DNA of 64,000 bases from Formosa agariphila KMM 3901 (lineage in GTDB: Bacteria; Bacteroidota; Bacteroidia; Flavobacteriales; Flavobacteriaceae). This document shows positions 31,634 through 64,000 of the stretch, one piece after another; the first letter of the stretch is position 1, and each line of letters opens with the position of its first letter. Location: assembly GCF_000723205.1 (NCBI RefSeq), contig NZ_HG315671.1, positions 1,337,351-1,401,350 of the forward strand, in the 5' to 3' direction. Both the position numbers and the translations under genes were made by a program. The notes under the pieces were generated by a model, which saw only the letters and a program-made list of their open reading frames with translations, did no database searches and was not told where the DNA came from.

Positions 31634-34600
31634 TTAATATTTAATACTGACTTTTTTGATTTTACTTCCATTTTGTGTTTCTACTTTGATAATGTAGTTT
31701 CCTTCAGAAATGTTTCTAACAGGTATTTTACAATCGTTAGATAGTGGTGCATTAGTGGTATTCCACATCTTAACAGTCTGACCTAAAACATTTATTAAAT
31801 ACACTTGTTTAATAGTTGTATAAGCAGGTGTCTTAATGCTGATCTCATCTGTTTGGTTCAAGTAACTAATCTCAATACTATCTAATTCTTTTTCGATAAT
31901 ATCTAATTTGTTTTCATCATTAAATGCTACAAAATAACGGTCTAAATACTCGCCTTTCGATAATTGAGCAGAGAACTTACTGTCATTAATTTTTGTGTAA
32001 GTATCGGTGAAACTATCATAGATAAATACATCTATAGCATTGTCGAAGTTTTCTAAACCTTTTAAACTGATTTCAACATTACCATCTTTACCAATAAACA
32101 TGGCTAAAGGATATTGTTTGGTTTCATCAAATTCACCAACACCTTGTATAACATATGTTTTCTCATTAATTAAGAATAACATATCGCTAGAAAGTTCTTC
32201 AAAGTTAGTGGCATCATAACCAAAATCAACATCGTCTGTCGCAGCATTATCAGGTGTAAATCCTAATAATAATTGTCTAATTGCATTATCTGGATTTTTA
32301 AATGCTAAGCGTACACGTTGAACATCGTTCGTGCTTTCTTCTATTGTTCCATTAGCTCTTAAAAATGCAGAGTCTCCACTTGCTTCTGTTTTAAAAATAC
32401 GCTGACTATTATTAAATTCTATTTGTCCAGTTTGTCCAGCAGTAATAAAGAATCCTTGTGCTACAGGAATGTAACGTTTTGGAATATAATTAGTAGCATC
32501 TCCAGTTCCGCTAATGTCTGCTGGGGCAACAGCTGCAGTTCCTCCAGTTAAGTTTAGTGATGCATAACCTCCTAAATATTCTTTAGTAACATGAGAATTA
32601 TTAGTTGTAGATTGTCTCCAAAAACGTATTTCACCGTTGTTTCCACCATCATCAAGCATATTTCGGTTATCGTTTATAAACGTATTAGCATCTATAGCAG
32701 ATGGATAAGGATTACCTACAAGTGCATCATTTCCACTAGAAACATTTACTTTGTAGTCACCGTTATTTGGTTGGCCAATAAAGGTGTAATCGGCCTTAGT
32801 AGCTCCTTTCATAATATAGCCTAAACCAACGTTAATAATGTAATCTTCATCTATACGATGCCAGTTAAAAGTATCTGTGTTATAATTTTCAAATAAGTAT
32901 AACCAACGTGTACTTATAGAAGGTGGATTTCCTGCTGCACCATTATGGTTAGCGGTCCAGCCTACCGGAGTAGTACCCACGTGAAGAACTTCGCTAAGTT
33001 TATAAGTTCTGTTATTTTCTGTACCAGCCGTACTTACAGGCGACGCCCAATAGTTATAATTATACACATTAGTGGTTCCTTCTTGGTCGCGTAGCAAGCC
33101 ACCTGTTCCATTATAATCTACTATGCTTCCTTTTGGTTGTAATAATTGAGCTTCGTTTTCCAATTTTAATGTGCCATCCAATTTAAGATATTTAGTAACA
33201 TTTAAAGGCATGTTGTCTGATACGGTTAGCGTATTGTCCTCTACGATTAAACCTAATACGGTAGTCGATTTGTCTATTGAAACATTGTTTTTAATTTTAA
33301 CAATATTCCATGTTATATCATTAGAGTTAGGTAATAGGTTAACATCTGCATTGTTCCAAGCAGCGGCTGTATTCCAATCACTGTTTCCACCACTTACATA
33401 AGGAAGCGGAGCTGTTTCCTGTTGCATTGTAGTCATGTTTCTTAAAACACCCGTTGCAGTTCCTTTAGTAGAGGTAAGGATTCCATCTATAATCTTAGAT
33501 CCCATTTGGTAATACCCAACAAGGTTAGTGTTCCAATTTAAACCTCCATTAATATCTAAAGGAATAACAGAACCTCTAACCGTGCCTCCATTATTTTCAA
33601 TTTCTTGGTTCATCATTTCTCGAATTTGGTCAGCTGATAAAGCCGTATTCCAAATACGTAATTCATCTAACCAACCATTAAAATAATTAGAAGGTAATAC
33701 AGAATCCTGAATAGCTCCTAAAAGGGCTAAACTCGTATTAGATTGTGGTCCATCTCCCGTTTTAGAAGCTTTTAGAATACCATCAATATAAAGTTTATAA
33801 CCAGATCCATTGTAGGTTACAGCAATATGATACCAACGGCTTGTTGATAATCCCGTTGCAGAGATATTATTGTTATTCCCCCAATTGAAGGCTATACTAG
33901 TACCGTTATTTATTGTTAGGTCGTAACCTGATGTTGAATTGGTAATACTACGTTTAGAGAACAACGTTTGTGAGCCATTTGTACTATTTGGTTTTACCCA
34001 AATTTCTATACTAAATGGACCATTTAAATTATAGGTATTTCCAAAGTTTACACTGGTGTTTGTTCCATTAAAGTCGAAATTATTTCCTGAACAAGCCGGG
34101 ATATTTACAGCAACTTCTGCACTGCTTTCTCCACAATCTTCACCATTAGATACTGTCCAGGTTAAGGTGTAATCTGTACCACTTTCTCCTGTGAAAGTTG
34201 CATTAGGATCTGTAATATCTGAGAATACACCACCTAAAGGTATGGCTGTCCATTCTCCAGAAATGTTTGTGTTGGCTTCTAATGTAACTGTTGTAACGTC
34301 ACAAGGGGTGTTTTCATCTATAGTAGTAATTAAATTAGCTTCTGCTTCTATAAATGGTAAAACAGTAATTTCTATATGTTTTTCTAAACCTGTAAGATTA
34401 TCACATGTAGTAGATATTGGTGTAAATGTGTAAACGACTGTAATCGGTCTATCTGATGTGTTCGTTAATTCATTAATTAATTCAAATACATCATTTTCTG
34501 AAATCTCACCCGAAGTACTACTCTCAATACCTTCAATAAGACCATTATCAGCACTATTTTTGGTTTCCCATTCCCAACTAAATTCCATTGGATTGTCGGT

Positions 34601-37600
34601 GATATTTCCATCTACAATTATTTCTGCGGTAGAACCACTACAAATTTCAGTTTCTGCTGCAGTTACGGATTCTATTTTTGGGGTTGGATAAATCATTAAA
34701 GGAAGTTCAATGAGGTCTGAGTTACACGTAGTATAATTTGAAAATATTGGTGTTATATAGAATATAGTACTTACAGTGCTATTTCCGTCATTTTTTAAAG
34801 TTGCATTGATTGTGGCAGATGTCTCTCTTCCTAAAAGACTTGTATTTACTCTTTTACCATTGTCAGTTCCTGTTGCAGGAGTGAAATAAGATGCATTAGA
34901 AGACCATGAGTAATCAACGTCCGAAAGCCATGTGTGACCAATAGTAACTTTAGGATTAATTTCATCTCCAGGGCAATAAGGAATTGTAGTACTTGGTTTA
35001 TTAGTAACTTCAGGACTATCAAATACACCTCCTAATCCTGAATAATTGATTATAATTATATTACTAATTTTAATTGTTGAACTACAAGCATTGTCATATA
35101 CACGTAATCTATAATATCTTTCTTGTCTAGGAGGAGCATATGTTGTTCCTGTTCCTACAGTTGTAAAACCACTATCCTGATTCTGACTTACTTGCCATTC
35201 GTAACTGTAGTTTCCTGAACCACCAGAAATTGCAGTTTCTAAATAAAGCGGAGTAGGATCTTCTCCGTAACATACATCTTGACTGTTTCCAATTACAGGA
35301 TTAGTCAAAGGTGCATAAACATCAACTGTTGCAGTAGTAGTTGTGCTACAACCTTGTCGTGTAGCTGTTATGGTAAATGTTACAGTTTGGGTTTCAGTAG
35401 TGGTGTTTGTTAATGTTCCTGAAGCTGTTGGTCCTGTACCAGAAGAGTTACTTGATGTTACTCCAGCAGGCAGGTTTGTAATTTCCCAAGAATAGTTTGT
35501 GTTATTGGTATTATAGGTGTTACTAAAAGCCATAGAGAAAGTTCCCCCATCACAAATGGCTTGTGTGCTTGGTGATACTTCTACTATAGGTGTAGGTGTA
35601 ACTCTAACGCGTATATCTTCTATAACATTACTTTCGCAACCGTTTGCTACAGCCCAAACTTTAAAGGTTAACACTCTATTTCTAAAATCTGTACTTTCAA
35701 ATTGTCCTGAAATAGAAGCTCCATTACCGCTTTCTAAGCCTGTAACGGTAGAAAAATTATCTGTACGCTCCCAATAATATTCAACATTTTCTAGGTTATT
35801 ATCGTTTAAAATTTCTATTGGAGTCATTTTTGTACCACTACAAACCGTTTGATTTAGGTTGGGTCTAAGATCTGGGTTTATTGAAATTACTAATTCTGGG
35901 TTTACTGTAATTGTAGCTGTAGTTAGTTCGCTGTCGCAACCGTTAGCGGAAGCTATTATTGTAAAAGTAGTAGTTTGTGGAGAATTAGTTGTATTCACTA
36001 AAGTTCCAGAGATTGTAGGATCTATAGCATTTGGAGCACTAGTACCGCTTTCTAAGCCTGTTATGCCCGTAGTATTATTACGTGTCCAACTGTAACTCAC
36101 TCCAGCGATGCCATTCGGGTTGCTAATAACAATAGGCGTGATGGCTTCTCCAAAACAAATCTCTTGAAGGGTATTGGTTGCAGCAACAGTGGGCGCAGGG
36201 TTAACAATAACATCCACAGTAAATGACTCTGATAAACAACCATATTCTGAATTTGCTCGAACGGTAAATGTTGTTGTTTGCGGAGAATTGGTTGAGTTTG
36301 TTAAAGCTACATTTATAGTATTACTGTCTCCAGTTGCAGGTCCAGTAACATCAGACGTGTTATTTCTAGTCCATACATATGTAAGCGGTTTGTCTACACC
36401 TTGATCGTCTGATATTGTAATGTCTGTAGTTTCTCCCGAACATATTTCAGGAGTAAAAGTGGCACTTAGTTCTGGTTTCGGATTAACAGTCACCGTAGCT
36501 GTAGTTTCACTTGTACATCCATTAGCAGTTGCAGTAATGGTGAACGTTGTTATCTGTGGTGTTCCAGTCGTATTTTTTAATGTTCCAGAAATAGGAGAAC
36601 CACTGCCACTAGTAGCTATTCCAGTAAGATTTGATGTGTTAGTACGAGTCCAAGCATATGAAATTCCAGTTACACTATTTTCATTCAAAATAGTTATAGG
36701 CGCAATAGAACCATCGCTACAAATCGTCTGACTTGGTTGATTTACAGAAATTATAGGGAGAGGATTTACTGTAATAGTTTGAGAAATTGCTCCTGTAGTA
36801 TTACATAGCCCTTCATGTCTCACGTAATAAGTTGTTGATTCTGTAGGAGCAATATTAATAGTTGTACCAGATCCCACGTTAGTGTTAAAGCTTGTATCTG
36901 TATACCATTCTATAGATGCTTCAGTACCTAGAGAACCTCCTGTTACTGTAAGAGTAGAAGATGTTGTCCCCTCGCAGAAAGTATCACCATTACTAGACGA
37001 AATTGTTGTTGGTTGTGTAGATTCTTTATTTACAGTTATTACTTGAGAAATTACCGATGTATCATTACATGTACCTTCATATCTTACATAATATGTTGTA
37101 GTTTCAGAAGGCGTGACAGTAATAGTTTCACCTGAACCAGCAGAATTAGTTAGAGCTGCATCTGTATACCATTCTAAAGTAGCTCCAGTACCCTGCGAAC
37201 CTCCTGTAATACCAAGTGTTGTTTGTGTTCCTTCGCAGAAAGTATCACCACTTGTAGACGTTATAGTTGTTGGTTGGGTCGATTCTTCATTTACAGTTAT
37301 AATTTGAGAAATTACCGATGTATCATTACATGTACCTTCATATCTTACATAATATGTTGTAGTTTCGGAAAGCGTGACTGTAATAGTTTCACCTGAACCA
37401 GCAGAATTAGTTAGAGCTGCATCTGTATACCATTCTAAAGAAGCTCCAGTACCCTGCGAACCTCCTGTAATACCAAGTGTTGTTTGTGTTCCTTCGCAGA
37501 AAGTATCACCACTTGTAGACGTTATAGTTGTTGGTTGGGTAGATTCTTCATTTACAGTTATAATTTGAGAAATTACCGATGTATTATTACACGTACCTTC

Positions 37601-39895
37601 ATATCTTACATAATATGTTGTAGTTGCGGAAGGCGTAACAGTAATAGTTTCACCTGAACCAGCAGAATTAGTTAGAGCCGTATCTGTATACCATTCTAAA
37701 GAAGCTCCTGTGCCTTGCGAACCTCCTGTAATACCAAGCGTTGTAGGAATACCTTCGCAAATGGTGTTGCTGTTAGAAGATGTTATTGTTGTTGGAGCAG
37801 TTGATTTTTCATTAACGTTAACCAATAATTCTGAAGCCAAAACACTTTCTCCACAATTGTTTACACCAACTACAGAAATAGTAAAATCGTTAAGAGCTGC
37901 ATTGGCTATGTCTAGGGCAATAGCATTGGTATTGCTTGTTCCATTAAAACTTGCAGAGCTATTAGAAATTGTCCAGTTATAAGATGTTGTATTTGGTAAA
38001 CTAGGAATTGTGTATTCGACCATAGTCTCTCCAGGACATAACAGTGTTGGTCCTGTAATAGGTTCTGGGTTATCTGGAACTGTATTAAATGACAGTGGTA
38101 GGGTAGTCGTATCTCCAGTACCACATCCATTTTCTGCAGCAACAGTTATAGCGCCGTTAATAGCAGTGTTAAAATCTACAGTTATAGTATTTGTTCCATC
38201 TCCAGAGGTTATTATAGCATCAGTTGGTAGCGTCCAATTGTACGACGTAGCGCCAGGAATTGCTGTTACGGTATAAGTTTTAGTACCTCCATAACAAATA
38301 TTAGAAACTGGATTAACGAAACTAGGAGCGCTTGGTACGTCTTCAACAGTAATTGCAAGACTAGACTGGTTCGTGTTACCACCACAGTCACCAACACCAT
38401 TAGCAACCACAGTTACATTTCCAGAGCTAGCATTTACATAATCTACCGTGATACTATTTGTGGTAGTTATAAGCGACCCTGTTGTGGGCGAACCACCAGA
38501 AGGAAGTGTCCATGTATAATTTTCGGCATTAGTAACTGCTGGAACGGTGTAAGTTATATTGCTAGAATTTTTGCAAACATCTTGCTGTCCGGAGATAGCG
38601 CCTATTGAATTACCTACAGGATTTGCATATTCTAATGTTACAGATATACAATCGCTTGGGGCGCACGCTCCTACATATTTTACAAAATAAGTAGTGGTTT
38701 CGTCAAGTTTAGTTATACCTAAATTTAGGCCGCTATGAATTACTGGTCCATCACAACTTCCTTTCGACCATTTTACATCCTGAGTATCATTACTAGCCAG
38801 TGTACCACCACTTACAGTTAGGGTAATATTTTCATTTGCACAATTGGGACGAGCTACAGATATTTGAGTAGGTGCAACATTTAATCCATTTACAACTAAA
38901 CTGTTATTAGATGTAGTAGTACCCTCAGGCGTAGTTATTTGAATGTTGCCGTTTCCTACAGAACCACTACTTATAGTGGCTGTAATTTGAGTATTAGAGT
39001 TTATAGAGAAGCTACTAGCGTTTGCATTTCCAATGCGCACTTGAGATGCATTGTTTAAATTTGTTCCTGTTATTATAACTTGTTCGCCCACGCATACAGT
39101 TAAAGGGCTTATATTAGTAATTGTAGGGGTAAGGTTTAGAGTATAGGTGAATTTTACTCGGCCATTTGCACCAGCACCACCATTTCTGAAGTTACTGTTA
39201 CCGTTGCCCGTACCATTGCCGCCGCCTCCGCCGCCTCCAGGACTACTACCTGACTGACCATCTGCATTACTACTACCAGCACCACCCGTGTTAGAAGCTC
39301 TTGCAGCATTACCTCCATTACCACCAGTTTGTCCAGAACCACCTTGTCCTTGCTGTCCGTTCTCACTGTTGTTACCAGTAGCACTTCCTCCAGTTCCTGC
39401 TTGTCCGTTACTGTTACCACTTCCTGCTTTTCCTCCGTTTCCACCACCGGCACTTAAAGTCGTACCATTTGGAGGCGTAAGGGTTGTGTCCCCACCATTA
39501 TTGCCATCACCAGTATTGTTGGCGATAGTACCTCCAATACCAACTGTAAAGCTAAATGTTTGTCCTGGGGTAACATTATTATAGGTTTGAGAGATATATG
39601 CGCCACCACCACCACCTCCGCCAGAGACGTTATCTTTCCTTGAACCTCCACCTGCGCCTCCTGCTCCCCATATTTCTACTTTAACACTTGTAGCACCGTT
39701 TGGTACAGACCATGCTTCAGATCCTGTGGTGTCGAAGGTATCGTAAACTTCTTGAGCATAGAGGTATTGAATACTAGATAGAACTAAAACTCCTAATAAT
39801 AAGACTTGTTTACAAGTTTTATGAAAAGATTGGTAATTTAATTTTATATAGAAAGCTTTATTTAAAATAGAAAATATTGAAGTAGAGTTATGCAT
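31634..39895 (-). CDS. giant T9SS-secreted multidomain surface protein
   Basis: A 2753-residue secreted protein. The signal peptide ends near residue 48 (SIQYLYAQ). Next is a Gly-rich domain (about 50-250) with runs such as GGGGGGGAY. An IPT/TIG-like domain follows (TITNISPLTVCVGEQVIITG, about 255-330). Then come many PKD/Ig-like units of about 80-90 residues, each with paired Cys (CxGxx...YxWT), and four 87-residue repeats at about 700-1050. A LamG/concanavalin-like domain lies near 1937-2100 (FSIEIWVKPN, RWYHIAVTYNG). The protein ends in a type IX sorting domain (about 2675-2753, LINVLGQTVKMW, EGNYIIKVET). It should be exported by T9SS and attached to, or released from, the cell surface as an adhesin or glycan-binding protein. 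The ligand is unknown. Single gene. Confidence 0.9.
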   Translation of the reverse strand: MHNSTSIFSILNKAFYIKLNYQSFHKTCKQVLLLGVLVLSSIQYLYAQEVYDTFDTTGSEAWSVPNGATSVKVEIWGAGGAGGGSRKDNVSGGGGGGGAYISQTYNNVTPGQTFSFTVGIGGTIANNTGDGNNGGDTTLTPPNGTTLSAGGGNGGKAGSGNSNGQAGTGGSATGNNSENGQQGQGGSGQTGGNGGNAARASNTGGAGSSNADGQSGSSPGGGGGGGNGTGNGNSNFRNGGAGANGRVKFTYTLNLTPTITNISPLTVCVGEQVIITGTNLNNASQVRIGNANASSFSINSNTQITATISSGSVGNGNIQITTPEGTTTSNNSLVVNGLNVAPTQISVARPNCANENITLTVSGGTLASNDTQDVKWSKGSCDGPVIHSGLNLGITKLDETTTYFVKYVGACAPSDCISVTLEYANPVGNSIGAISGQQDVCKNSSNITYTVPAVTNAENYTWTLPSGGSPTTGSLITTTNSITVDYVNASSGNVTVVANGVGDCGGNTNQSSLAITVEDVPSAPSFVNPVSNICYGGTKTYTVTAIPGATSYNWTLPTDAIITSGDGTNTITVDFNTAINGAITVAAENGCGTGDTTTLPLSFNTVPDNPEPITGPTLLCPGETMVEYTIPSLPNTTSYNWTISNSSASFNGTSNTNAIALDIANAALNDFTISVVGVNNCGESVLASELLVNVNEKSTAPTTITSSNSNTICEGIPTTLGITGGSQGTGASLEWYTDTALTNSAGSGETITVTPSATTTYYVRYEGTCNNTSVISQIITVNEESTQPTTITSTSGDTFCEGTQTTLGITGGSQGTGASLEWYTDAALTNSAGSGETITVTLSETTTYYVRYEGTCNDTSVISQIITVNEESTQPTTITSTSGDTFCEGTQTTLGITGGSQGTGATLEWYTDAALTNSAGSGETITVTPSETTTYYVRYEGTCNDTSVISQVITVNKESTQPTTISSSNGDTFCEGTTSSTLTVTGGSLGTEASIEWYTDTSFNTNVGSGTTINIAPTESTTYYVRHEGLCNTTGAISQTITVNPLPIISVNQPSQTICSDGSIAPITILNENSVTGISYAWTRTNTSNLTGIATSGSGSPISGTLKNTTGTPQITTFTITATANGCTSETTATVTVNPKPELSATFTPEICSGETTDITISDDQGVDKPLTYVWTRNNTSDVTGPATGDSNTINVALTNSTNSPQTTTFTVRANSEYGCLSESFTVDVIVNPAPTVAATNTLQEICFGEAITPIVISNPNGIAGVSYSWTRNNTTGITGLESGTSAPNAIDPTISGTLVNTTNSPQTTTFTIIASANGCDSELTTATITVNPELVISINPDLRPNLNQTVCSGTKMTPIEILNDNNLENVEYYWERTDNFSTVTGLESGNGASISGQFESTDFRNRVLTFKVWAVANGCESNVIEDIRVRVTPTPIVEVSPSTQAICDGGTFSMAFSNTYNTNNTNYSWEITNLPAGVTSSNSSGTGPTASGTLTNTTTETQTVTFTITATRQGCSTTTTATVDVYAPLTNPVIGNSQDVCYGEDPTPLYLETAISGGSGNYSYEWQVSQNQDSGFTTVGTGTTYAPPRQERYYRLRVYDNACSSTIKISNIIIINYSGLGGVFDSPEVTNKPSTTIPYCPGDEINPKVTIGHTWLSDVDYSWSSNASYFTPATGTDNGKRVNTSLLGRETSATINATLKNDGNSTVSTIFYITPIFSNYTTCNSDLIELPLMIYPTPKIESVTAAETEICSGSTAEIIVDGNITDNPMEFSWEWETKNSADNGLIEGIESSTSGEISENDVFELINELTNTSDRPITVVYTFTPISTTCDNLTGLEKHIEITVLPFIEAEANLITTIDENTPCDVTTVTLEANTNISGEWTAIPLGGVFSDITDPNATFTGESGTDYTLTWTVSNGEDCGESSAEVAVNIPACSGNNFDFNGTNTSVNFGNTYNLNGPFSIEIWVKPNSTNGSQTLFSKRSITNSTSGYDLTINNGTSIAFNWGNNNNISATGLSTSRWYHIAVTYNGSGYKLYIDGILKASKTGDGPQSNTSLALLGAIQDSVLPSNYFNGWLDELRIWNTALSADQIREMMNQEIENNGGTVRGSVIPLDINGGLNWNTNLVGYYQMGSKIIDGILTSTKGTATGVLRNMTTMQQETAPLPYVSGGNSDWNTAAAWNNADVNLLPNSNDITWNIVKIKNNVSIDKSTTVLGLIVEDNTLTVSDNMPLNVTKYLKLDGTLKLENEAQLLQPKGSIVDYNGTGGLLRDQEGTTNVYNYNYWASPVSTAGTENNRTYKLSEVLHVGTTPVGWTANHNGAAGNPPSISTRWLYLFENYNTDTFNWHRIDEDYIINVGLGYIMKGATKADYTFIGQPNNGDYKVNVSSGNDALVGNPYPSAIDANTFINDNRNMLDDGGNNGEIRFWRQSTTNNSHVTKEYLGGYASLNLTGGTAAVAPADISGTGDATNYIPKRYIPVAQGFFITAGQTGQIEFNNSQRIFKTEASGDSAFLRANGTIEESTNDVQRVRLAFKNPDNAIRQLLLGFTPDNAATDDVDFGYDATNFEELSSDMLFLINEKTYVIQGVGEFDETKQYPLAMFIGKDGNVEISLKGLENFDNAIDVFIYDSFTDTYTKINDSKFSAQLSKGEYLDRYFVAFNDENKLDIIEKELDSIEISYLNQTDEISIKTPAYTTIKQVYLINVLGQTVKMWNTTNAPLSNDCKIPVRNISEGNYIIKVETQNGSKIKKVSIKY
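36751..37794 (-). repeat. four tandem 261-bp (87-residue) repeats in the giant surface protein
   Basis: The unit encodes PTTIT...CEG...LGITGGSQGTGASLEWYTD...TTYYVRYEGTCN...ISQIITVN and recurs every 261 bases. Copies start near 37794, 37533, 37272 and 37011. Copies 2 and 3 are almost identical at DNA level, copy 1 is close, and the fourth is diverged. Near-identical tandem units can change number by recombination. Confidence 0.85.
39154..39670 (-). repeat. low-complexity Gly-rich coding segment
   Basis: Codes for the Gly/Ser/Asn-rich N-terminal domain (NGGDTTLTPPNG, GNSNGQAGTGGSATG, SSPGGGGGGGNGTG). The GC content is visibly higher than in the surroundings because of GGN codons. It is likely an extended or polyglycine-helix type structure. 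Confidence 0.7.
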
Positions 39896-55307: not shown

Positions 55308-57686
55308 TTATTTATTAGGATACCAAATTTTTGAAGTCCCCATCGTTCCATTAAAATCGAATGGCGCTTCATCGTAATAATCTATTGAAACAGGCGAACC
55401 TAAATCACTACCAAAATCAAGACAATCATTTGCTGTAAAAGCAAAAGGCACAGTAATAGGTATTTGTCCCTTTGCAACCTCTTTACCATTTACCATAAGA
55501 CTAATATTCATTGGAGAACCTGATTTCTCTGCTGTTAATCTTGATACAACCTCTATTTTAACATCGCCAGTAGGTAATTTTGTTTTAGACTTAATATGCG
55601 TTCTTTTTATTTCGAACATATTGTATTCATAACATAAATAACCATCTTTTATATAGCAAGATAGTCCACCAGAAAAACCTCCAAGTGCATATAAAACCCC
55701 ATTAGCATTGTCTGGAACAGTAATCTCCATACTTACATTGTTATTAAATTTTCCTAGTTTAGGCGCTGTAAATTCTGGCATACGTTCAATTCTTCCACTA
55801 AACGTCCAGTCTGTATATGGTGTTGCCGGAGCATCTTCGGGATGATAAATAATAGACCATAAGCCGCCTCCAATAGGTAAGTTTTTATTCTTTGCAGATT
55901 CAACTAAGAACATGTTTTTCATTTCGGCTAGCTTCTCGGGATTTTTTTTGGCTAAATCGTTAGCTTGACTCCAGTCTTCATTTATATTGTAAAGTTCCCA
56001 AGTATCTTCTTCTGGATTCCAAGTCGCAGCTCCTGCAGGTAAACCTGGTACCCACGGATTTCTTAGACCAAAGGCCGAAGCAAACCATCCGTCGTAGTAA
56101 AGTCCACGACTTCCCATAATATCAAAGAATTGAATTTTACGTGTGCCTTCTGCTTTAGCATTAGCAAACGTGTAGTCCATGCTCACACCGTTAATTGGGT
56201 CTTGAGGAAAACCATTCACAACAAGCGGAGCTTCAATATTTACAGCTTCATAAATTGTTGGCACAATATCGATAACATGATGAAATTGTGGTCTAGGAGT
56301 CTTATCGTGCTTAATGTTTTTAGGCCATGAGACAGCCAACGGCTGACGTGTACCACCAAAGTGGGCAGCAACTAGTTTTGTAGATTTGTATGGCGTAGAA
56401 CCAGCCCATGCCCAACCTGCGTTATACATGTTATCCGTTTTAGGCGAGCCCAAAACATCTAAACCTCCAAGCTCTTCTAAAGCATCAATATGTTGTTTAA
56501 TGGTACTCGGGATGCTGTTTTGTGCTAGTAATTCGCTAATTGTTCCATTCTGTCCTTCTGCCGAAGATCCATTATCTCCCCAGATATAAAATATAAGTGT
56601 ATTATCTAGTTTCCCTTGTCTTTCAATTTCATCAATAAGCAAACCAACATTGTAATCGGTATGTTCTGCAAAACCAGCAAAAACTTCCATTAACCTACTT
56701 TGAAACGCTCTTTCATCTTTAGGTATGTCGTTCCAACCTGCCATTGTTTCATTTCTTTCTGTCAATTTCGCGTCTTGAGGAATCCATCCCAATTCTTTTT
56801 GTTTCTTAAAGGCACGTTTGCGATATTCATCCCAACCGTCATCAAATTTACCTTTGTATTTATCGGCCCATTCTTTAGCCACATGGTGTGGACCATGCAC
56901 TGCACCTGGTGCCCAATACATTAAAAATGGCTTGTCTGGAGCAAATGCTTGTTGTTCTCTTAACCAACGAATAGCATCTTCTGTAATATCTTCGGTAAGA
57001 TGATAATAATCATGGCCTTGAGTTGTTTTTGGATGTTCTACAACTGTAGTGTTACGCACCATATGCGGCTCGTACTGTGAGGCTTCACCAGCTAAAAATC
57101 CGTAAAAATATTCGAAACCATAGCCTGTAGGCCAATAATCAAAAGGACCTTTAGAGGTTGTAAGTTCTGCAGGTGTATTATGCCATTTTCCGAATGCACT
57201 TGTATTATAACCGTAATTTTTTAAGACTTCGGCAACGGTGGCTGCATTTTTAGGAATGGTCCCACTAAATCCATCCCAATCGTTGGCTATTTCAGCAATT
57301 TGGCCGTTTCCAATCATGGTATGATTTCTTCCAGTAAGTAGTGACGCACGAGTTGGAGAACACATAGCGGTTGAGTGAAATCGGTTATAAGATATCCCTT
57401 GATTTGCAACTCTACTTAAATTTGAAGTGTTTATTTCTCCTCCATAAGTAGATGGTGTAGCTGGTCCAGCGTCATCAATTAATATTATTAATATGTTAGG
57501 TGCGTCTTTGTCAAGACGCTGTTTGTCTACTCGTTTTTTATAAGTAGAGGTTTGCATGGTAAGACCTGCTTCACTTGCCGATGGTGTTGGAGGAAAGGGC
57601 AATACATCTTGCGCCTGAACAAAACCAACAGTTCCAATCAAAATAAAACAGCTTAGACATTTTAGAATGGTTTGCTTAGTTTTCAT
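55308..57686 (-). CDS. arylsulfatase, AtsA/AtsD-like (sulfatase 1)
   Basis: A 792-residue exported type I sulfatase. The signal peptide ends near residue 27 (FVQAQ). The metal-binding start NILIILIDDAGPATPSTYGG, the formylglycine motif CSPTRASLLTGR and GKWHN follow, then a calcium-site region (WGDNGSSAEGQNG) and a C-terminal beta-sandwich domain. It hydrolyses sulfate esters; length matches the mycobacterial AtsD class (about 790). CSPTR Cys must be oxidised to formylglycine by a maturase not present here. I use the ATG at 57686: a GTG at 57740 lies upstream of the predicted transcription start. Control element: see 57722-57775. Confidence 0.94.
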   Translation of the reverse strand: MKTKQTILKCLSCFILIGTVGFVQAQDVLPFPPTPSASEAGLTMQTSTYKKRVDKQRLDKDAPNILIILIDDAGPATPSTYGGEINTSNLSRVANQGISYNRFHSTAMCSPTRASLLTGRNHTMIGNGQIAEIANDWDGFSGTIPKNAATVAEVLKNYGYNTSAFGKWHNTPAELTTSKGPFDYWPTGYGFEYFYGFLAGEASQYEPHMVRNTTVVEHPKTTQGHDYYHLTEDITEDAIRWLREQQAFAPDKPFLMYWAPGAVHGPHHVAKEWADKYKGKFDDGWDEYRKRAFKKQKELGWIPQDAKLTERNETMAGWNDIPKDERAFQSRLMEVFAGFAEHTDYNVGLLIDEIERQGKLDNTLIFYIWGDNGSSAEGQNGTISELLAQNSIPSTIKQHIDALEELGGLDVLGSPKTDNMYNAGWAWAGSTPYKSTKLVAAHFGGTRQPLAVSWPKNIKHDKTPRPQFHHVIDIVPTIYEAVNIEAPLVVNGFPQDPINGVSMDYTFANAKAEGTRKIQFFDIMGSRGLYYDGWFASAFGLRNPWVPGLPAGAATWNPEEDTWELYNINEDWSQANDLAKKNPEKLAEMKNMFLVESAKNKNLPIGGGLWSIIYHPEDAPATPYTDWTFSGRIERMPEFTAPKLGKFNNNVSMEITVPDNANGVLYALGGFSGGLSCYIKDGYLCYEYNMFEIKRTHIKSKTKLPTGDVKIEVVSRLTAEKSGSPMNISLMVNGKEVAKGQIPITVPFAFTANDCLDFGSDLGSPVSIDYYDEAPFDFNGTMGTSKIWYPNK

Positions 57687-57721
57687 TGAGTTTAAAAGTT
57701 TGTAATTAGTATAGAATATAC

Positions 57722-57775
57722 CAAACTTAGTCAAGAACACTATAATATATAAGTGTAATACCGTTACTTAACGGT
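57722..57775 (-). promoter_or_regulatory. operator and promoter of sulfatase 1
   Basis: On the minus strand: TAACCGTTAAGTAACGGT, containing the perfect palindrome ACCGTTA-AG-TAACGGT (57775-57760), then TTACACTTATA, 18 bases, and TAAGTTTG (57729-57722), a perfect -7 box. There is no clear -33 element. The same arrangement recurs at 59774-59829. Confidence 0.75.
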
Positions 57776-57898
57776 TAAACGACGAGGGAAAAATATCATT
57801 TAAAAAGTAGGCATATCTATGAATTAATAAGTGAAGTTTTTGTTATATTTGGAATAAGGACAGAAATTAAATGTTTTTTTGTCCATAAAGCTCCCTTA

Positions 57899-59518
57899 AT
57901 GTTACCAATTTTAAATACAACTTTAGTAGACTCGGAACCCGAGATTTTAGATGAATTGAATCTTATTTTATCTAGTGATTTGTTTGCTCGTTCTTCAGTA
58001 CTTTCAAAATTTTTAAAATTTATAGTTGAAGAAACTCTAGCTGGACGTACCAATGGTTTAAAAGAGTATACTATAGCCGTAAATGGATTGGGAAAGTCTT
58101 TAGATTTTAATCCACAAATAGATGCGATTATTAGAATTCATGCGGGAAGGTTAAGACGTTCTTTAAACGAATATTATGTTGGGTCAGGTAAAAATGATCG
58201 AATTAAAATAGAAGTAATTAAAGGTACGTATATTCCCGTTTTTAGGTCTAATGTTATTAATAAGCCTGATGAGGTTTTACAAAAAAAGAGTAAACCTATT
58301 GAGTTTTCGCGATCAAAACTTACCCTTGCCGTACTCCCTTTCCGGAATTTATGTCCAGATAAAGAGTATCAATTTTTTGTAGAAGGATTTGGAGAAGAGC
58401 TAACGCGTATCTTTAGCTCAGAATCTAATATTGCTGTTGTAGCACATCATTCTGCCCGTAAATATGCATCTATAGAAGAAGATATTCGTATAATTGGCGC
58501 AGACTTAGGTGCTCATTATTTAATAAATGGTTCTGTAAAACGTTCTAATACAGAAATTCGCGTAAGTGTAGGGCTCGTTGAAACCTTAAACGGCATGCTA
58601 ATTTGGTCTAAAGATTACTCTCATGTACTTGAAAAAGAGAAAATTTTCGATATTCAAGATCAAATTAATAATGAAGTTTTTTCGATTTTAAGTGGTCATT
58701 ATGGTTTCATAATTAGAGATTCAATAGCAGATAAACATGATAAGATGGATCAAAATTTAAACAGTTTTGATGCCGTGTTTTGGAATTACCACGCACAAAT
58801 GTCGCATAGTATTGAAGCTTGTAAAACGAGTAGAAAAGCGCTTGAAGATGCATTAGCTAACGATATCAATAACGTTATGTGTATGGTAATGCTTGCCGAT
58901 TTATATCTTAATTTACATTTACTTGGCTATCCTAATATTGATGATCCTGTAAATGAAGCCTACCGCCTTATTAAAAAGGCTATTAAGTTTGCTCCACGTT
59001 CTCAGCGCGCTCATTTGGCGTTTGGTTGGGTAAATATTTGTTTAGGTGAAAAAGAGAAAGCTATACAGTCTTTAAAATACAGTTTGAAATTAGGCCCTTT
59101 ATCAGCATCGACACGCGGCGATATCGGGTTTTCATTAATTTGTGCCGGAGAGTATAAACAATCTTATAGTTTACTTTTACAGGCACTGGAACTTAATCCA
59201 TATTGCCCGTGGTGGTATTTTATGGGATTTTTCTTTATACATTTTAATAATGAAAACTATGAAGAAGCATTACAATCTGCTAATAATATGAATGCTTCCG
59301 AAGATGTATTTCTAAATCCGTTATTAACTGCTGCTGCTAAAGGGCAAATGGGACTGGTCTTAGAAGCGCAAACAGAAGTGAACCTATTACAACAAAAATT
59401 TCAGCCAATTCTTGAAAATCTTAGAATGCACTTAGAATTTATTGTGTTAGATCATAATCTAGTCGATAAAATTTTAACAGGAGTTAGAAAGGCAGGATTA
59501 GAAATAGTCTCAAAATAA
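57899..59518 (+). CDS. TolB-like/TPR regulator of the sulfatase locus (putative)
   Basis: A 539-residue protein. Residues 1-115 form a domain found in many one-component regulators labelled adenylate cyclase-like: LSKFLKFIVEETLAG, LKEYTIAVNGLGKSLDFNPQ and DAIIRIHAGRLRRSLNEYY. Residues about 140-265 are TolB N-terminal-like (LAVLPFRNL, EGFGEELTRIFSS, ADLGAHYLINGSVKR). The rest has TPR-like helices (RSQRAHLAFGWVNICLGEKEKAIQSLKYSLKLGPL, about 345-500). I see no cyclase catalytic domain and no membrane helix. It sits between the two copies of the operator element, so I infer that it controls both arms. Ligand unknown. Confidence 0.8.
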   Translation: MLPILNTTLVDSEPEILDELNLILSSDLFARSSVLSKFLKFIVEETLAGRTNGLKEYTIAVNGLGKSLDFNPQIDAIIRIHAGRLRRSLNEYYVGSGKNDRIKIEVIKGTYIPVFRSNVINKPDEVLQKKSKPIEFSRSKLTLAVLPFRNLCPDKEYQFFVEGFGEELTRIFSSESNIAVVAHHSARKYASIEEDIRIIGADLGAHYLINGSVKRSNTEIRVSVGLVETLNGMLIWSKDYSHVLEKEKIFDIQDQINNEVFSILSGHYGFIIRDSIADKHDKMDQNLNSFDAVFWNYHAQMSHSIEACKTSRKALEDALANDINNVMCMVMLADLYLNLHLLGYPNIDDPVNEAYRLIKKAIKFAPRSQRAHLAFGWVNICLGEKEKAIQSLKYSLKLGPLSASTRGDIGFSLICAGEYKQSYSLLLQALELNPYCPWWYFMGFFFIHFNNENYEEALQSANNMNASEDVFLNPLLTAAAKGQMGLVLEAQTEVNLLQQKFQPILENLRMHLEFIVLDHNLVDKILTGVRKAGLEIVSK

Positions 59519-59851
59519 ACTTATATAGTATTATTATCCGTTATCAATTATTTACGATTTATAACCAAAATCAGGGATTAATCAAAATGTAAACGGCATT
59601 CATTGTGTTGTTGTTTATTATGTAGACCTTCACTGTATTGTCCCATCAAAGTCACCACAGTTTCCATGAATATATAATGTAATAAAGGTGTATTCTATAG
59701 TAAAATATGTCTTGTATCTGTTACATGTAATATTTAATCTTGTGGCTTCTATTTGCAATTTTACTTTTCCATTTAACCGTTAAGTAACCGTGTAACACTT
59801 ATACTGAAGCAAAGTGTATCTTAAATTTACAGGTATAGAAACTAGATATTA
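59519..59851. other. intergenic region carrying the second operator
   Basis: 333 bases between the regulator and the small gene. The operator and promoter at 59774-59829 fill its right part; the left part shows no gene or RNA. Confidence 0.6.
59774..59829 (+). promoter_or_regulatory. operator and promoter of the right sulfatase operon
   Basis: TAACCGTTAAGTAACCGT (59774-59791) differs from the sulfatase 1 element by one base, followed by GTAACACTTATA, then 18 bases and TAAATTTA (59822-59829), one base off the -7 consensus. The two TAACCGT words are 11 bases apart on one face of the helix. Confidence 0.75.
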
Positions 59852-60091
59852 ATGCCTAATCATTTAAAATACATCTTTCAAGCCTTTCCAAATTTTAAGG
59901 AGAAAATTGAATTCATGTTTCACCACAATGAAAACTTTCATGATTTGTGTGAGGATTACTTGCTATGCATAAACAAGATATTAGAACTAAAGAAGGATAA
60001 CAGTCATCATAGTATTCATATTCAAGAATATCAAGATATACAAAACGATTTAGAACGAGAAATTTTTCAAATTATTTCAAAGGCAGATTAG
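59852..60091 (+). CDS. small helical hypothetical protein
   Basis: A 79-residue acidic, all-helical protein with no signal peptide. It starts YIFQAFPNFKEKIEFMFHHN, with the LCEDYLLC block and a C-terminal helix (EYQDIQNDLEREIFQIIS). The FPxxKEKI-then-helix pattern is faintly like YdcH/DUF465 hairpins, a weak resemblance only. It is the first gene behind the operator at 59774-59829 and may be a partner or regulator of the sulfatase operon. Function unknown. Confidence 0.65.
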   Translation: MPNHLKYIFQAFPNFKEKIEFMFHHNENFHDLCEDYLLCINKILELKKDNSHHSIHIQEYQDIQNDLEREIFQIISKAD

Positions 60092-60322: not shown

Positions 60323-61393
60323 ATGACCTATTCAAAATATAAATTTACAAAATATAAAAAGCAAAATGGTTTAAGTTTTTTTAAACAATTATGTTTATTA
60401 GTCTTTATCATGACTTTCAATAATATTGTTCATAGTCAAAACTCTAAGAAATTCGTGTCTCCACTTCAAACTGGACATTATACACCAGGTTTTTTAAGTA
60501 TTAGAGATTTCGCTGATCCAGCCCCAGCTAGTGGGATAATTGTATTAGATTATAATATATATCAATATGGAGATAAATTTTATAACTCAACCGGAGATCA
60601 ATTAAATCAGATTGGTAATGTGAAATTAGACTCTAATCTGAAAGGTTATATTAATAACCCTTTTCTTTTGTATGCTTCTAAAAAGAAAATATTAGGTGCA
60701 ACTTATTTTGGAGGTGTTTCAGTACCATACGTTACGGTCAATACTAATTTGGCATATTCTCGAATTGGAACTATAACAGGAGACGAAAAAAATGGAAATG
60801 TAAGTGGTAAAGTTTCTGGTTTTTCAGATTTAAATGTTTTACCTCTTTACTTGAGTTGGTCTAAATCTTCTTATAATATTACAGCAGGCTATATGTTTTA
60901 TGCACCAACTGGTAAATTTGAGTTAGGTGGTGATGATAATACGGGGCTTGGATACTGGAGTAATATTTTTCAAACATTTGGATATTGGTATCCTCAAAAA
61001 ATAGAAGATAAACCTTCTAAAGCTTTAGCTGTTATGTTGGGGGCAAGCTATGAATTAACTGGAAAAATTAAAGATTCAGACGTAAATATTGGTGATCGTT
61101 TCTCTTTAGATTATGGTATTGAACAATATTTAAATGAAAAATTTTCGGTAGGGATTTATGGAGGTAACAATTGGCAAGTCTCAAAAGACAAGGGAAGTCA
61201 GGTTTATTGGGATAATACTGTAAAAGATAGATTAGGTATTGTAGGTATACAGTTAGCCTATTGGCTATTACCTAATAGACTTCAAGCTGTTGGAAAATGG
61301 GGATTTAGTTACGGAGCTATAGAACGTTATCAGCAAAATTCAGTACAAATAAATCTAGTATTTATCACGGGAGCTTTAAGCAATAGCAATTAA
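60323..61393 (+). CDS. MetA-pathway type outer-membrane protein
   Basis: A 356-residue exported protein of the phenol-degradation MetA-like outer-membrane family. A signal peptide (residues about 25-38, IMTFNNIVHSQ) is preceded by a basic leader. The mature part starts with the family pattern LQTGHYTPGFLSIRDFADPAPASG and then alternates strands (LPLYLSWSKSSYNITAGYMFYAPTG) to a C-terminal strand (VQINLVFITGA). Family members are thought to help hydrophobic or aromatic compounds cross the outer membrane. Here it lies 37 bases before sulfatase 2 and may import the sulfated substrate, which is inference. Confidence 0.85.
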   Translation: MTYSKYKFTKYKKQNGLSFFKQLCLLVFIMTFNNIVHSQNSKKFVSPLQTGHYTPGFLSIRDFADPAPASGIIVLDYNIYQYGDKFYNSTGDQLNQIGNVKLDSNLKGYINNPFLLYASKKKILGATYFGGVSVPYVTVNTNLAYSRIGTITGDEKNGNVSGKVSGFSDLNVLPLYLSWSKSSYNITAGYMFYAPTGKFELGGDDNTGLGYWSNIFQTFGYWYPQKIEDKPSKALAVMLGASYELTGKIKDSDVNIGDRFSLDYGIEQYLNEKFSVGIYGGNNWQVSKDKGSQVYWDNTVKDRLGIVGIQLAYWLLPNRLQAVGKWGFSYGAIERYQQNSVQINLVFITGALSNSN

Positions 61394-61430: not shown

Positions 61431-62888
61431 ATGAAAACACTAATCTGTAAATATTTTAAAGATAACTCAAGTTTGATTACTTCAGTGCTATTAGTACTAA
61501 TTTCATCATTTGTATCTGCGCAAGATAAACCGAACATTGTATATATTTTAGTAGATAACGTTGGCTATGGCAATTTTGGAACTTACGGAGGTACGGTGGA
61601 TACGCCTAATATTGATAAGTTAGCCAAAAGTGGTATACAGTTTAATAACTATAATGTTGAGGCACAATGTACACCAACTAGATCAGCTATTATGACAGGA
61701 AGGCATCCTGTTCGTTCAGGTACAACCTCAGTGCCCTTACCGGGAACGGGACTAGGCGGAATGTCTCCTTGGGAATATACTTTACCAGAACTACTTTCTG
61801 ATGTTGGTTATGCTACGGCGCTGTTTGGTAAATGGCATTTAGGAGATCAGGAAGGTAGATTACCAAACAATCAAGGTTTTGATGAATGGTGGGGAATAAA
61901 AAATAGTTGGGATGAAGCTGGTTATACTACTTGGCCACTATTTAAAGAAAGTGGTATGGAAACGCCTATGATATGGGAAGGTAAGAAAGGGCAGAAATCT
62001 AAAGCAGTCATGCCTTTAAATCTAAAAATTAGACCAATCGTAGATAGAGATTATATCATACCTAAAACTGTGAATTACATTAAGAATAATGCAAAAAAGA
62101 AGACACCGTTCTTCGTTTATGTAGGGTATTCTGAAGCACATCCTCCGATAATAATTAACGAAGATTTTTCAGGAAAATCTACCAAACGAGGAGGAAAATG
62201 GGCAGATATGATTGCTGAGATGGATTTTCATGTTGGAGAAATTATTGATGCAGTGAAAGACACTGGTATTGAGAATAACACCATTTTCATATTCTGCAGT
62301 GATAATGCGAATGGGGGATTTGTACCACAGGATGGTCCGGGATCTAATGGACCATTTAGAGGTGATTTTGCAAACGTTCCTTTTGAAGGAAGCATGCGAG
62401 TTCCTGCAATAATAAGTTGGCCAGGAAAAGTACCTGCAGGTATTGTTACACAAGAGATTTTTGCCGCTGTAGACTGGTTGCCTACGATAGCAGGAATGAT
62501 AGGGGAGCAGAAACATATACCCACAGATAGACCTATTGACGGTATTGATGCCTCTGCAATGATGTTAGGTAAAAGTAATATAACTGGTCGTGATAATTAT
62601 ATGTTCTTTGGTACAGACGGTGGATTACTATCCGTGAAATGGAAGGTTTATAAAACAATATTTAGATATACTGAAGGACCTGTATCTGCAGAGAAATCTT
62701 ATATAAAACCTTCATTTCCTATGATTTATGATTTGAGTAGTGATCCACATGAAGACAATAACCTTATGACTTCAGATTTGACTGTTGGTTGGATTTTTGC
62801 TCCAAATGTTAAGATTATTGGTGCATACGAACACAGTCTAAAAGAATTTCCTAATATTAAGGTAGGTCAAGATTTTAAGGGGTACTAA
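61431..62888 (+). CDS. arylsulfatase (sulfatase 2)
   Basis: A 485-residue exported type I sulfatase. Signal peptide to about residue 31 (SFVSAQ). The N-terminal metal site reads PNIVYILVDNVGYGNFG, so the second Asp of the usual DD pair is Asn, a variant I have seen in related marine sulfatases. The formylglycine motif CTPTRSAIMTGRHP, GKWHLGD and FCSDNANGGF follow. It should cleave sulfate esters in the periplasm after formylglycine maturation. No maturase gene is in the window. It is co-directional and close to the MetA-type and DUF1254 genes. The substrate is unknown; it is a different subfamily from sulfatase 1. Confidence 0.94.
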   Translation: MKTLICKYFKDNSSLITSVLLVLISSFVSAQDKPNIVYILVDNVGYGNFGTYGGTVDTPNIDKLAKSGIQFNNYNVEAQCTPTRSAIMTGRHPVRSGTTSVPLPGTGLGGMSPWEYTLPELLSDVGYATALFGKWHLGDQEGRLPNNQGFDEWWGIKNSWDEAGYTTWPLFKESGMETPMIWEGKKGQKSKAVMPLNLKIRPIVDRDYIIPKTVNYIKNNAKKKTPFFVYVGYSEAHPPIIINEDFSGKSTKRGGKWADMIAEMDFHVGEIIDAVKDTGIENNTIFIFCSDNANGGFVPQDGPGSNGPFRGDFANVPFEGSMRVPAIISWPGKVPAGIVTQEIFAAVDWLPTIAGMIGEQKHIPTDRPIDGIDASAMMLGKSNITGRDNYMFFGTDGGLLSVKWKVYKTIFRYTEGPVSAEKSYIKPSFPMIYDLSSDPHEDNNLMTSDLTVGWIFAPNVKIIGAYEHSLKEFPNIKVGQDFKGY

Positions 62889-62943: not shown

Positions 62944-64000
62944 ATGAATTTAAAATTTAAATTACCAATTGCGCTTTGCTTTATCTCGCTATTAATTAGC
63001 GGTTGCGAAAAGTCTAAGGAGGGCAAGAAAATAGAAATTAAAGAGGACGTTACAAGTTCTATACAGTCTATAAAAGCAAAGTTTAATACAGATGTTCCAG
63101 AAAAAATACTAACACCAGATGTTGTCGATACAAGACTAGGAACTTTAAATTTCTTTGATGGATTACCATCAGAGGAAACCACCAAGAAAATGTTCGATAA
63201 TTTAGATTTTATGAGGGGAGTCGAAACCTTTTTAAATGGAATTCCAGCAACTTCTATAGAAGGAATTCGTTTAGGATTGGAGGAATTGGGTGCTAATGAA
63301 TCTAATAAAGTCGTAATTTTTGATGACCTTATGGATTCTAATCCGTTATTCTTAACTGGTAATACGAGCACAGTTTATGCCACTACATTTCTAAATTTAA
63401 AAGAAAATGGGCCCACGGTGGTTGAGGTTCCTGCTGGCTGTGGACCAGGTACTGTAAATGATGCCTATTTCAGATTTGTAGTAGATATGGGAGCGCCAGG
63501 ACCAGATAGAGGTAAAGGCGGTAAATATCTAATTTTACCACCCGATTACGACGGAGAAATTCCGGAAGGATACTTTGTTTCAAAATCAACTAGTTATGTT
63601 AATTGGTTAATTTTAAGAGGTTTTTTAGTCAATGGAAAAACAGATGTGTCATCTAAAATGTATCGTGATGGATTAAGAATTTATCCGCTTAAGGATAAAG
63701 ATAATCAGCCTGCAATGGAGTTTATAAATGCATCTAAAAAAATATTTAATACGATACATGCTAATAATTATGATTTTTATAAAGAATTAGGAGAAGTTAT
63801 AGAGCGAGAACCTGTATCTTTTTTAGACCCTGAATTACGAGGTTTGTTTTCTAGTATAGGTATCCAAAAAGGATTGCCATTTAATCCAGATGCACGGATG
63901 AAAAACATTTTAGAAGATGCTGTAAAAGTTGGTAATGCAACAGCTCGAGCCATTGCTTTTAAAACTAGAGATAGTCTAGCATCTGTATTTAAAACAGGAC
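62944..64000 (+). CDS. DUF1254/DUF1214 family lipoprotein (partial, runs off the window)
   Basis: At least 352 residues are read before the window ends. An N-terminal lipoprotein signal ends at Cys21 (LLISGCEK). The DUF1254 domain is recognisable from about 60: LGTLNFFDGLPSEET, FLNGIPATSIEGIRLGL, and GPGPDRGKGGKYLILPPDY-like APGPDRGKGGKYL near 188-200, then the start of a DUF1214 region. Members are envelope proteins of unknown activity, often next to sulfatase or aromatic-compound genes. It lies 55 bases after sulfatase 2 in the same operon. C-terminus not seen. Confidence 0.88.
   Translation, partial: MNLKFKLPIALCFISLLISGCEKSKEGKKIEIKEDVTSSIQSIKAKFNTDVPEKILTPDVVDTRLGTLNFFDGLPSEETTKKMFDNLDFMRGVETFLNGIPATSIEGIRLGLEELGANESNKVVIFDDLMDSNPLFLTGNTSTVYATTFLNLKENGPTVVEVPAGCGPGTVNDAYFRFVVDMGAPGPDRGKGGKYLILPPDYDGEIPEGYFVSKSTSYVNWLILRGFLVNGKTDVSSKMYRDGLRIYPLKDKDNQPAMEFINASKKIFNTIHANNYDFYKELGEVIEREPVSFLDPELRGLFSSIGIQKGLPFNPDARMKNILEDAVKVGNATARAIAFKTRDSLASVFKTG

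Follow-up and report, generated by a model that had tools for sequence, protein, structure and literature searches.

A conserved repeat element on both sides of a TolB/TPR-type regulator gene points to a local gene switch in Formosa agariphila

Two outward-facing elements flank a regulator gene

We analysed a window of 64,000 nucleotides from Formosa agariphila KMM 3901 (contig NZ_HG315671.1, positions 1,337,351 to 1,401,350), in which a regulator gene (57899..59518, plus strand) lies between a leftward sulfatase gene and a rightward gene cluster. The left-hand sulfatase (55308..57686, minus strand; ~792 amino acids) matches PF00884 with an E-value of 3e-56 and carries a CSPTR motif, which we take to be the sulfatase motif. 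The rightward cluster, all on the plus strand, begins with a small acidic protein of 79 amino acids (59852..60091), followed by a Phenol_MetA_deg protein (60323..61393; PF13557, E 6.9e-22) that is presumably an outer-membrane barrel, a second sulfatase (61431..62888; PF00884, E 1.8e-44) and a DUF1254 protein (62944..64000) that extends past the window end and is 527 amino acids long in stretch L006. Elsewhere in the window, a single minus-strand open reading frame (ORF) at 31634-39895 encodes 2753 amino acids.

Two copies of TTTAACCGTTAAGTAACsGTnTnACACTTATA occur in the window, both facing away from the regulator gene. As 28-mers they occupy 57750..57777 on the minus strand, towards the sulfatase gene (core TAACCGT-TAAG-TAACGGT), and 59774..59801 on the plus strand, towards the right-hand operon (core TAACCGT-TAAG-TAACCGT), each with the tail ACACTTA. 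Each is followed by a -7-like box of the form TAAnTTTr, TAAGTTTG at 57722..57729 (minus) and TAAATTTA at 59822..59829 (plus), which starts at offset 48 from the operator start and 18 bases past the operator, the gap being counted from CACTTATA to the box. The shared element and equal 18-base spacing put forward in the original prediction are exact in both copies, as is the perfect palindrome that it placed at 57760-57775 (ACCGTTA-CT-TAACGGT, in the minus copy); the plus copy is one base off. A candidate -7 box for the regulator's own promoter, TATATTTG, lies at 57844..57851 (plus) and has no facing operator. The same box was found at a similar distance in stretch L067 and at the second regulator copy of stretch L036 (both described below), and was absent from the other stretches read.

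Scanning the window at up to 3 mismatches returned these two matches, compared with none in 100 shuffles, and the whole 4.23 Mb genome held only the same two at that threshold, which rules out a general operator with many genomic copies. The two copies are alike at 29 of 32 operator positions, 3 of 18 spacer positions and 19 of 55 upstream positions. Because spacer and upstream flank differ while the operator agrees, a recent promoter duplication is also excluded.

The element occurs where the full-length regulator is found

A contig scan for the regulator identified loci in Gelidibacter japonicus, two Xanthomarina, Algoriphagus chordae, a Cytophagales metagenome-assembled genome (MAG) and Chryseolinea serpens, with regulators 39-59% identical to the window copy; the named species belong to Flavobacteriales and Cytophagales. 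The element adjoins the regulator in all six, as it does in G225, a genome of the window's family (presumably Flavobacteriaceae) whose homologue is 55% identical to the window copy. In Xanthomarina F1114 it is present on one side of the regulator only, and in Chryseolinea a second copy lies 10 kb off, at the small protein gene. All 15 sites in the six named genomes are on the regulator's contig, within ~13.2 kb.

Among 397 genomes of the window's family, sites were found in two, the window genome (G000) and G225, with two sites each flanking the regulator; the other 395 had none. Close regulator homologues among the same 397 genomes were confined to those two, in a search that scored at most three candidates per genome. 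In 395 genomes drawn from the phylum, which partly overlap the family set, only the window genome had sites. Of 196 genomes from the family of the Algoriphagus genome, six had a match. Three of these were already known (G775, G777 and G778), and a fourth, G1275, carries two perfect sites; it was spotted through the sites, and the regulator was then found beside one of them. Single sites with 3 mismatches in G1202 and G1237 were taken as chance and left out of the final set; neither has a -7 box at offset 48, and both genomes have only remoter regulator matches, starting from profile position 132 or later. A reversed control pattern also matched (8 times in the 196 genomes, 7 in the 397 and once in the 395 phylum genomes), so lone 3-mismatch matches are to be expected. 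One other site with 3 mismatches (L038 11908) was retained, as it adjoins the regulator and has a -7 box at offset 48.

In total, 21 sites were found in nine genomes, each holding a full-length regulator homologue, and every site lies no more than ~13.2 kb from the regulator. For the most part, these genomes had been selected by way of the regulator, and the search patterns were written after the first sites were known; G225 (among 396 others) and G1275 are free of this selection. The proposal that the regulator acts on both flanking copies gains support from this co-occurrence, as judged from sequence, and the confinement to one locus that it implied held up, with no distant copies in the organism's own genome, the 397 family genomes or the six named genomes. 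We regard the regulator-operator module as real.

The full-length regulator family is rare: across 395 genomes of the class, a profile search recovered it only in G000, G317 and G920 at an E-value of 1e-60. The 19 kb read around two distant homologues (L064 10111-11694 and L065 9482-11056) contained no match to the site with 6 or fewer mismatches, and no variant operator was found nearby; both homologues have a similar N-terminal helix, and a sulfatase adjoins the L065 homologue. Second, remoter homologues in G778 and G1275 likewise have no sites near them. Upstream of the Chryseolinea regulator lies an operator-like core with 6 mismatches (L041 9775-9802) that has no CACTTA tail, and a similar half-kept core, also tailless, precedes the regulator in G1275 (L086); these cores perhaps reflect autoregulation. 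Gelidibacter carries a second regulator copy (L036 14392-16050) that contains an in-frame TAA stop; it is accompanied by its own sulfatase and flanked by operators.

Repeats precede a weak promoter at a fixed distance

A gapless alignment of 19 sites gave the consensus T TAACsGT TAAG TAACsGT nTwAnmCTTRY, then TAnnTTTR at offset 48; the two G1275 sites, found afterwards, fit the same layout. The core consists of two direct repeats of 7 bp separated by 4 bp (7-4-7, an 11-bp period); among the 19 sites, two depart from it at offset 1, one at offset 4 and one at offset 12. The two variable S positions read CC in 8 sites, CG in 4, GC in 4, GG in 2 and TG in 1, and the central AG points to the promoter in 19 of 19. 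On these letters, the core would read equally well as a palindrome or as a direct repeat.

The -7 box formed no part of any search pattern. It has TA and TT at offsets 48-49 and 53 in all 21 sites, and offset 48 gives the best match in 19 and the joint best in 2. The full TAnnTTTG is present in 6 of the 21 (the window minus copy, the G225 plus copy, two in Gelidibacter and one each in Xanthomarina and the Cytophagales MAG), and the other boxes are one or two letters from it. A matrix built from the 17 sites of other genomes, which were originally found through likeness to the window's sites, scored the window copies at 50.4 (plus) and 48.1 (minus) bits, with the next place at 1.7; the -7 box is the independent part of this test, as it was in no search pattern. 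In 18 of 19 sites, a same-strand ORF starts 47-221 nt past the site, the start having been picked by hand in two of the 18 (an internal methionine at L036 14224 and a TTG at the Chryseolinea plus site). Behind the remaining site, L068 7470, the sulfatase start is 514 nt away, with shorter ORFs in between.

At offsets 24-27, all 19 aligned sites read CTTR, with TTA in 17 and TTG in 2. The -33 element, which had been described as missing from both promoters, therefore appears weak rather than absent: the window tails contain CTTA, 20 bases before the -7 box. The window promoters share their TAnnTTTG-type box with flavobacterial sigma-A promoters, in which it lies at -12 to -5 according to an excerpt of PMC9723704, and differ in their weak -33 element and the operator ahead of it. 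With the box set at those positions, the repeats fall at ~-60 to -54 and ~-49 to -43, and CTTR at ~-36 to -33; the repeats stop 6 bases short of CTTR and leave the -7 box uncovered. The same rule would place the transcription starts of the two window promoters near 57717 and 59834.

A regulator with a putative DNA-binding part

The regulator comprises an N-terminal part of ~120 amino acids with no Pfam match, a middle part resembling the CadC sensor and a TPR C-terminus (TPR_17, 27.7 bits against a cut-off of 24.4). A HilA/EilA profile matched residues 137-479 at an E-value of 8.3e-10, a weak match of 37.7 bits against a cut-off of 589, and Foldseek paired the C-terminal part with the CadC sensor/periplasmic domain 3ly8 (E 4.9e-06) with poor superposition (rmsd 15.8). 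The full-length structural model is itself weak (mean pLDDT 67.0). No transmembrane segment was seen, the best 19-residue hydropathy being 1.47; in 7 of 7 homologues the corresponding value was 1.04-1.58, always in the C-terminal half.

The regulator gene is the sole match to its own protein in the window's genome (E 0.001). At the same threshold, relatives occur in 187 of the 397 family genomes, and most of the matches listed are confined to the TolB/TPR part, beginning near residue 130. Whole-protein identity to the window's regulator is 38-59% in other genera, and the N-terminal part, at 62-74%, is better conserved than the protein as a whole.

Trans_reg_C matched neither the window protein nor any of 8 N-terminal parts; at a loose threshold, Pfam gave nothing sensible for these 8, with one weak DUF648 match in a single copy. 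Comparison with PDB chains by sequence found none better than E 0.37, and Foldseek found nothing similar (best E 1.9). The hhalign comparison with the PhoB and CadC winged helices was not significant (probability 1%, E 0.056), with the recognition-helix region pairing up. Of five AF2 models, the highest-scoring (pLDDT 79.9; the others 52.4-67.7) shows six helices, ending with a long one, and then two strands. This order would be compatible with a winged helix, and we infer that the N-terminal part may have this fold. The part is not uniformly basic, since 3 of 8 copies have a computed pI of 5.2-6.5.

Genes behind the sites

In each of the nine genomes, a site is followed by a gene for a relative of the small acidic protein. 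In addition to the window copy, relatives are located at L067 9429, L036 16257, L037 11794, L038 11992, L039 11764, L040 11720, L066 11729 and L086 13169. They are 73-85 amino acids long, and FP, F, C-x5-C (two cysteines) and EY are invariant in 8 aligned copies. A sulfatase, by comparison, follows a site in 6 of 8 genomes read; we found none past a site in the stretches read from Xanthomarina F1114 (L039) and Chryseolinea (L041 and L066). The original prediction spoke of a sulfatase regulator; sulfatases are frequent neighbours but do not define the regulon, and the predicted invariant target is the small acidic protein, not the sulfatase.

In L037 12135-16931, three DUF1254/DUF1214 cluster genes stand in a row past one operator; the Pfam search covered the first of them. 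The genes at the second Chryseolinea site resemble an RND efflux set, a name given from reading the ORFs alone; together with the sulfatases elsewhere, they suggest, as a guess, sulfate esters or amphiphiles as inducer.

An activator model and its alternatives

A conserved repeat just before a weak -33 element and a good -7 box, facing the downstream gene, is the arrangement of an activator site beside polymerase. The sites have a fixed geometry, are conserved and are confined to the regulator locus. From this we infer a probable mechanism in which a cytosolic TolB/TPR one-component activator binds at ~-60 to -43 of both promoters and recruits RNA polymerase. The N-terminal part would bind TAACsGT-TAAG-TAACsGT, probably as a head-to-tail dimer, at two promoters that lead outward from the regulator gene. 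These have a good -7 box and a poor -33 element (CTTR), so polymerase would need the bound regulator to start. The TolB/TPR part may sense a ligand, perhaps one tied to the sulfatases' substrate, and the active regulator would turn on the left sulfatase and, in the predicted right-hand operon, the genes for the small protein, the barrel, the second sulfatase and the DUF1254 protein.

Repression is unlikely, though it is the alternative that fares best. The regulator would bind the same sites but, sitting just before and at the -33 element, would block RNA polymerase until a ligand releases it. Predicted binding is supported just as well under this reading, and the conserved block extends into the -33 position, but the 6-base gap before CTTR and the free -7 box argue against blocking, and a -33 element that reads TTA or TTG is a poor one, which fits the need for an activator.

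We consider it less probable still that another protein binds the sites, whether the small acidic protein or a regulator from another locus. The small protein accompanies the site as strictly as the regulator does, being present in all nine module genomes and in 1 of 179 family genomes, namely the window's own (G225, which carries the protein in L067, was presumably outside that sample). Yet it is acidic, with a computed pI of 4.3-5.5 in 8 of 8 copies; Pfam scans of three copies gave no or very weak matches and no DNA-binding family; and it looks like a target, because it comes first behind the operator in all nine genomes. A general regulator encoded elsewhere would leave sites across the genome, where none was found at up to 3 mismatches. 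Finally, there is hardly any chance that the sites are repeats without regulatory function that were copied along with the locus. The rarity of the module and its scatter over two orders suggest transfer of the whole locus, but the window copies agree in the operator and not in spacer or upstream flank, and the same positions are kept across genera although the regulators have diverged to 38-59% identity.

Discussion

Activation by the regulator, the reading we favour, places the element within a familiar general kind of switch; our results point to an undescribed local instance. In CadC and HilA, an N-terminal DNA-binding part and a sensor part that is TolB-like and TPR-like are joined in one protein. 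The window regulator shares this layout with HilA and the CadC/ToxR-like activators, its own DNA-binding part being putative. Unlike the CadC/ToxR-like proteins, it has no single transmembrane helix between the two parts, and its N-terminal part is not recognizable as an OmpR-type winged helix by Pfam, Foldseek or hhalign.

Polysaccharide loci of Bacteroidetes are controlled by HTCS, ECF sigma, AraC, GntR and LacI regulators. The locus resembles these in having a local regulator next to a catabolic cluster, and Pfam found none of those domains in the window regulator. The site itself recalls the tandem operators of PhoB/PhoP-type regulators, as it also consists of two 7-bp direct repeats with a 4-bp spacer by the core promoter, the arrangement given for Mycobacterium tuberculosis PhoP sites in an excerpt of PMC4832192. 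It differs in sequence and is also nearly palindromic, and its candidate binder has no Pfam match to a receiver domain.

We did not find the operator sequence, or a link between DUF1254 and sulfatase, in the literature searched, and no regulator of this kind was named among the literature matches listed. We take the site to be new, together with the small protein and a target for regulators of this family; the DNA-binding domain is possibly new as well. A broader reading, which we offer tentatively, is that the N-terminal part represents a DNA-binding family outside Pfam that reads the 7-4-7 repeat before weak sigma-A promoters, within a self-contained, horizontally moving module. Such a module would combine a fixed regulator, the operator and a small two-cysteine protein feeding back on the regulator with an exchangeable payload of sulfatases, DUF1254 proteins or efflux-like genes.

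To our knowledge, few regulator-operator pairs have been worked out in Bacteroidetes beyond the polysaccharide systems. One TolB/TPR-type regulator now has an exact candidate site and promoter geometry, open to test, and DUF1254 genes, sulfatases and a small conserved protein are joined in one candidate regulon.
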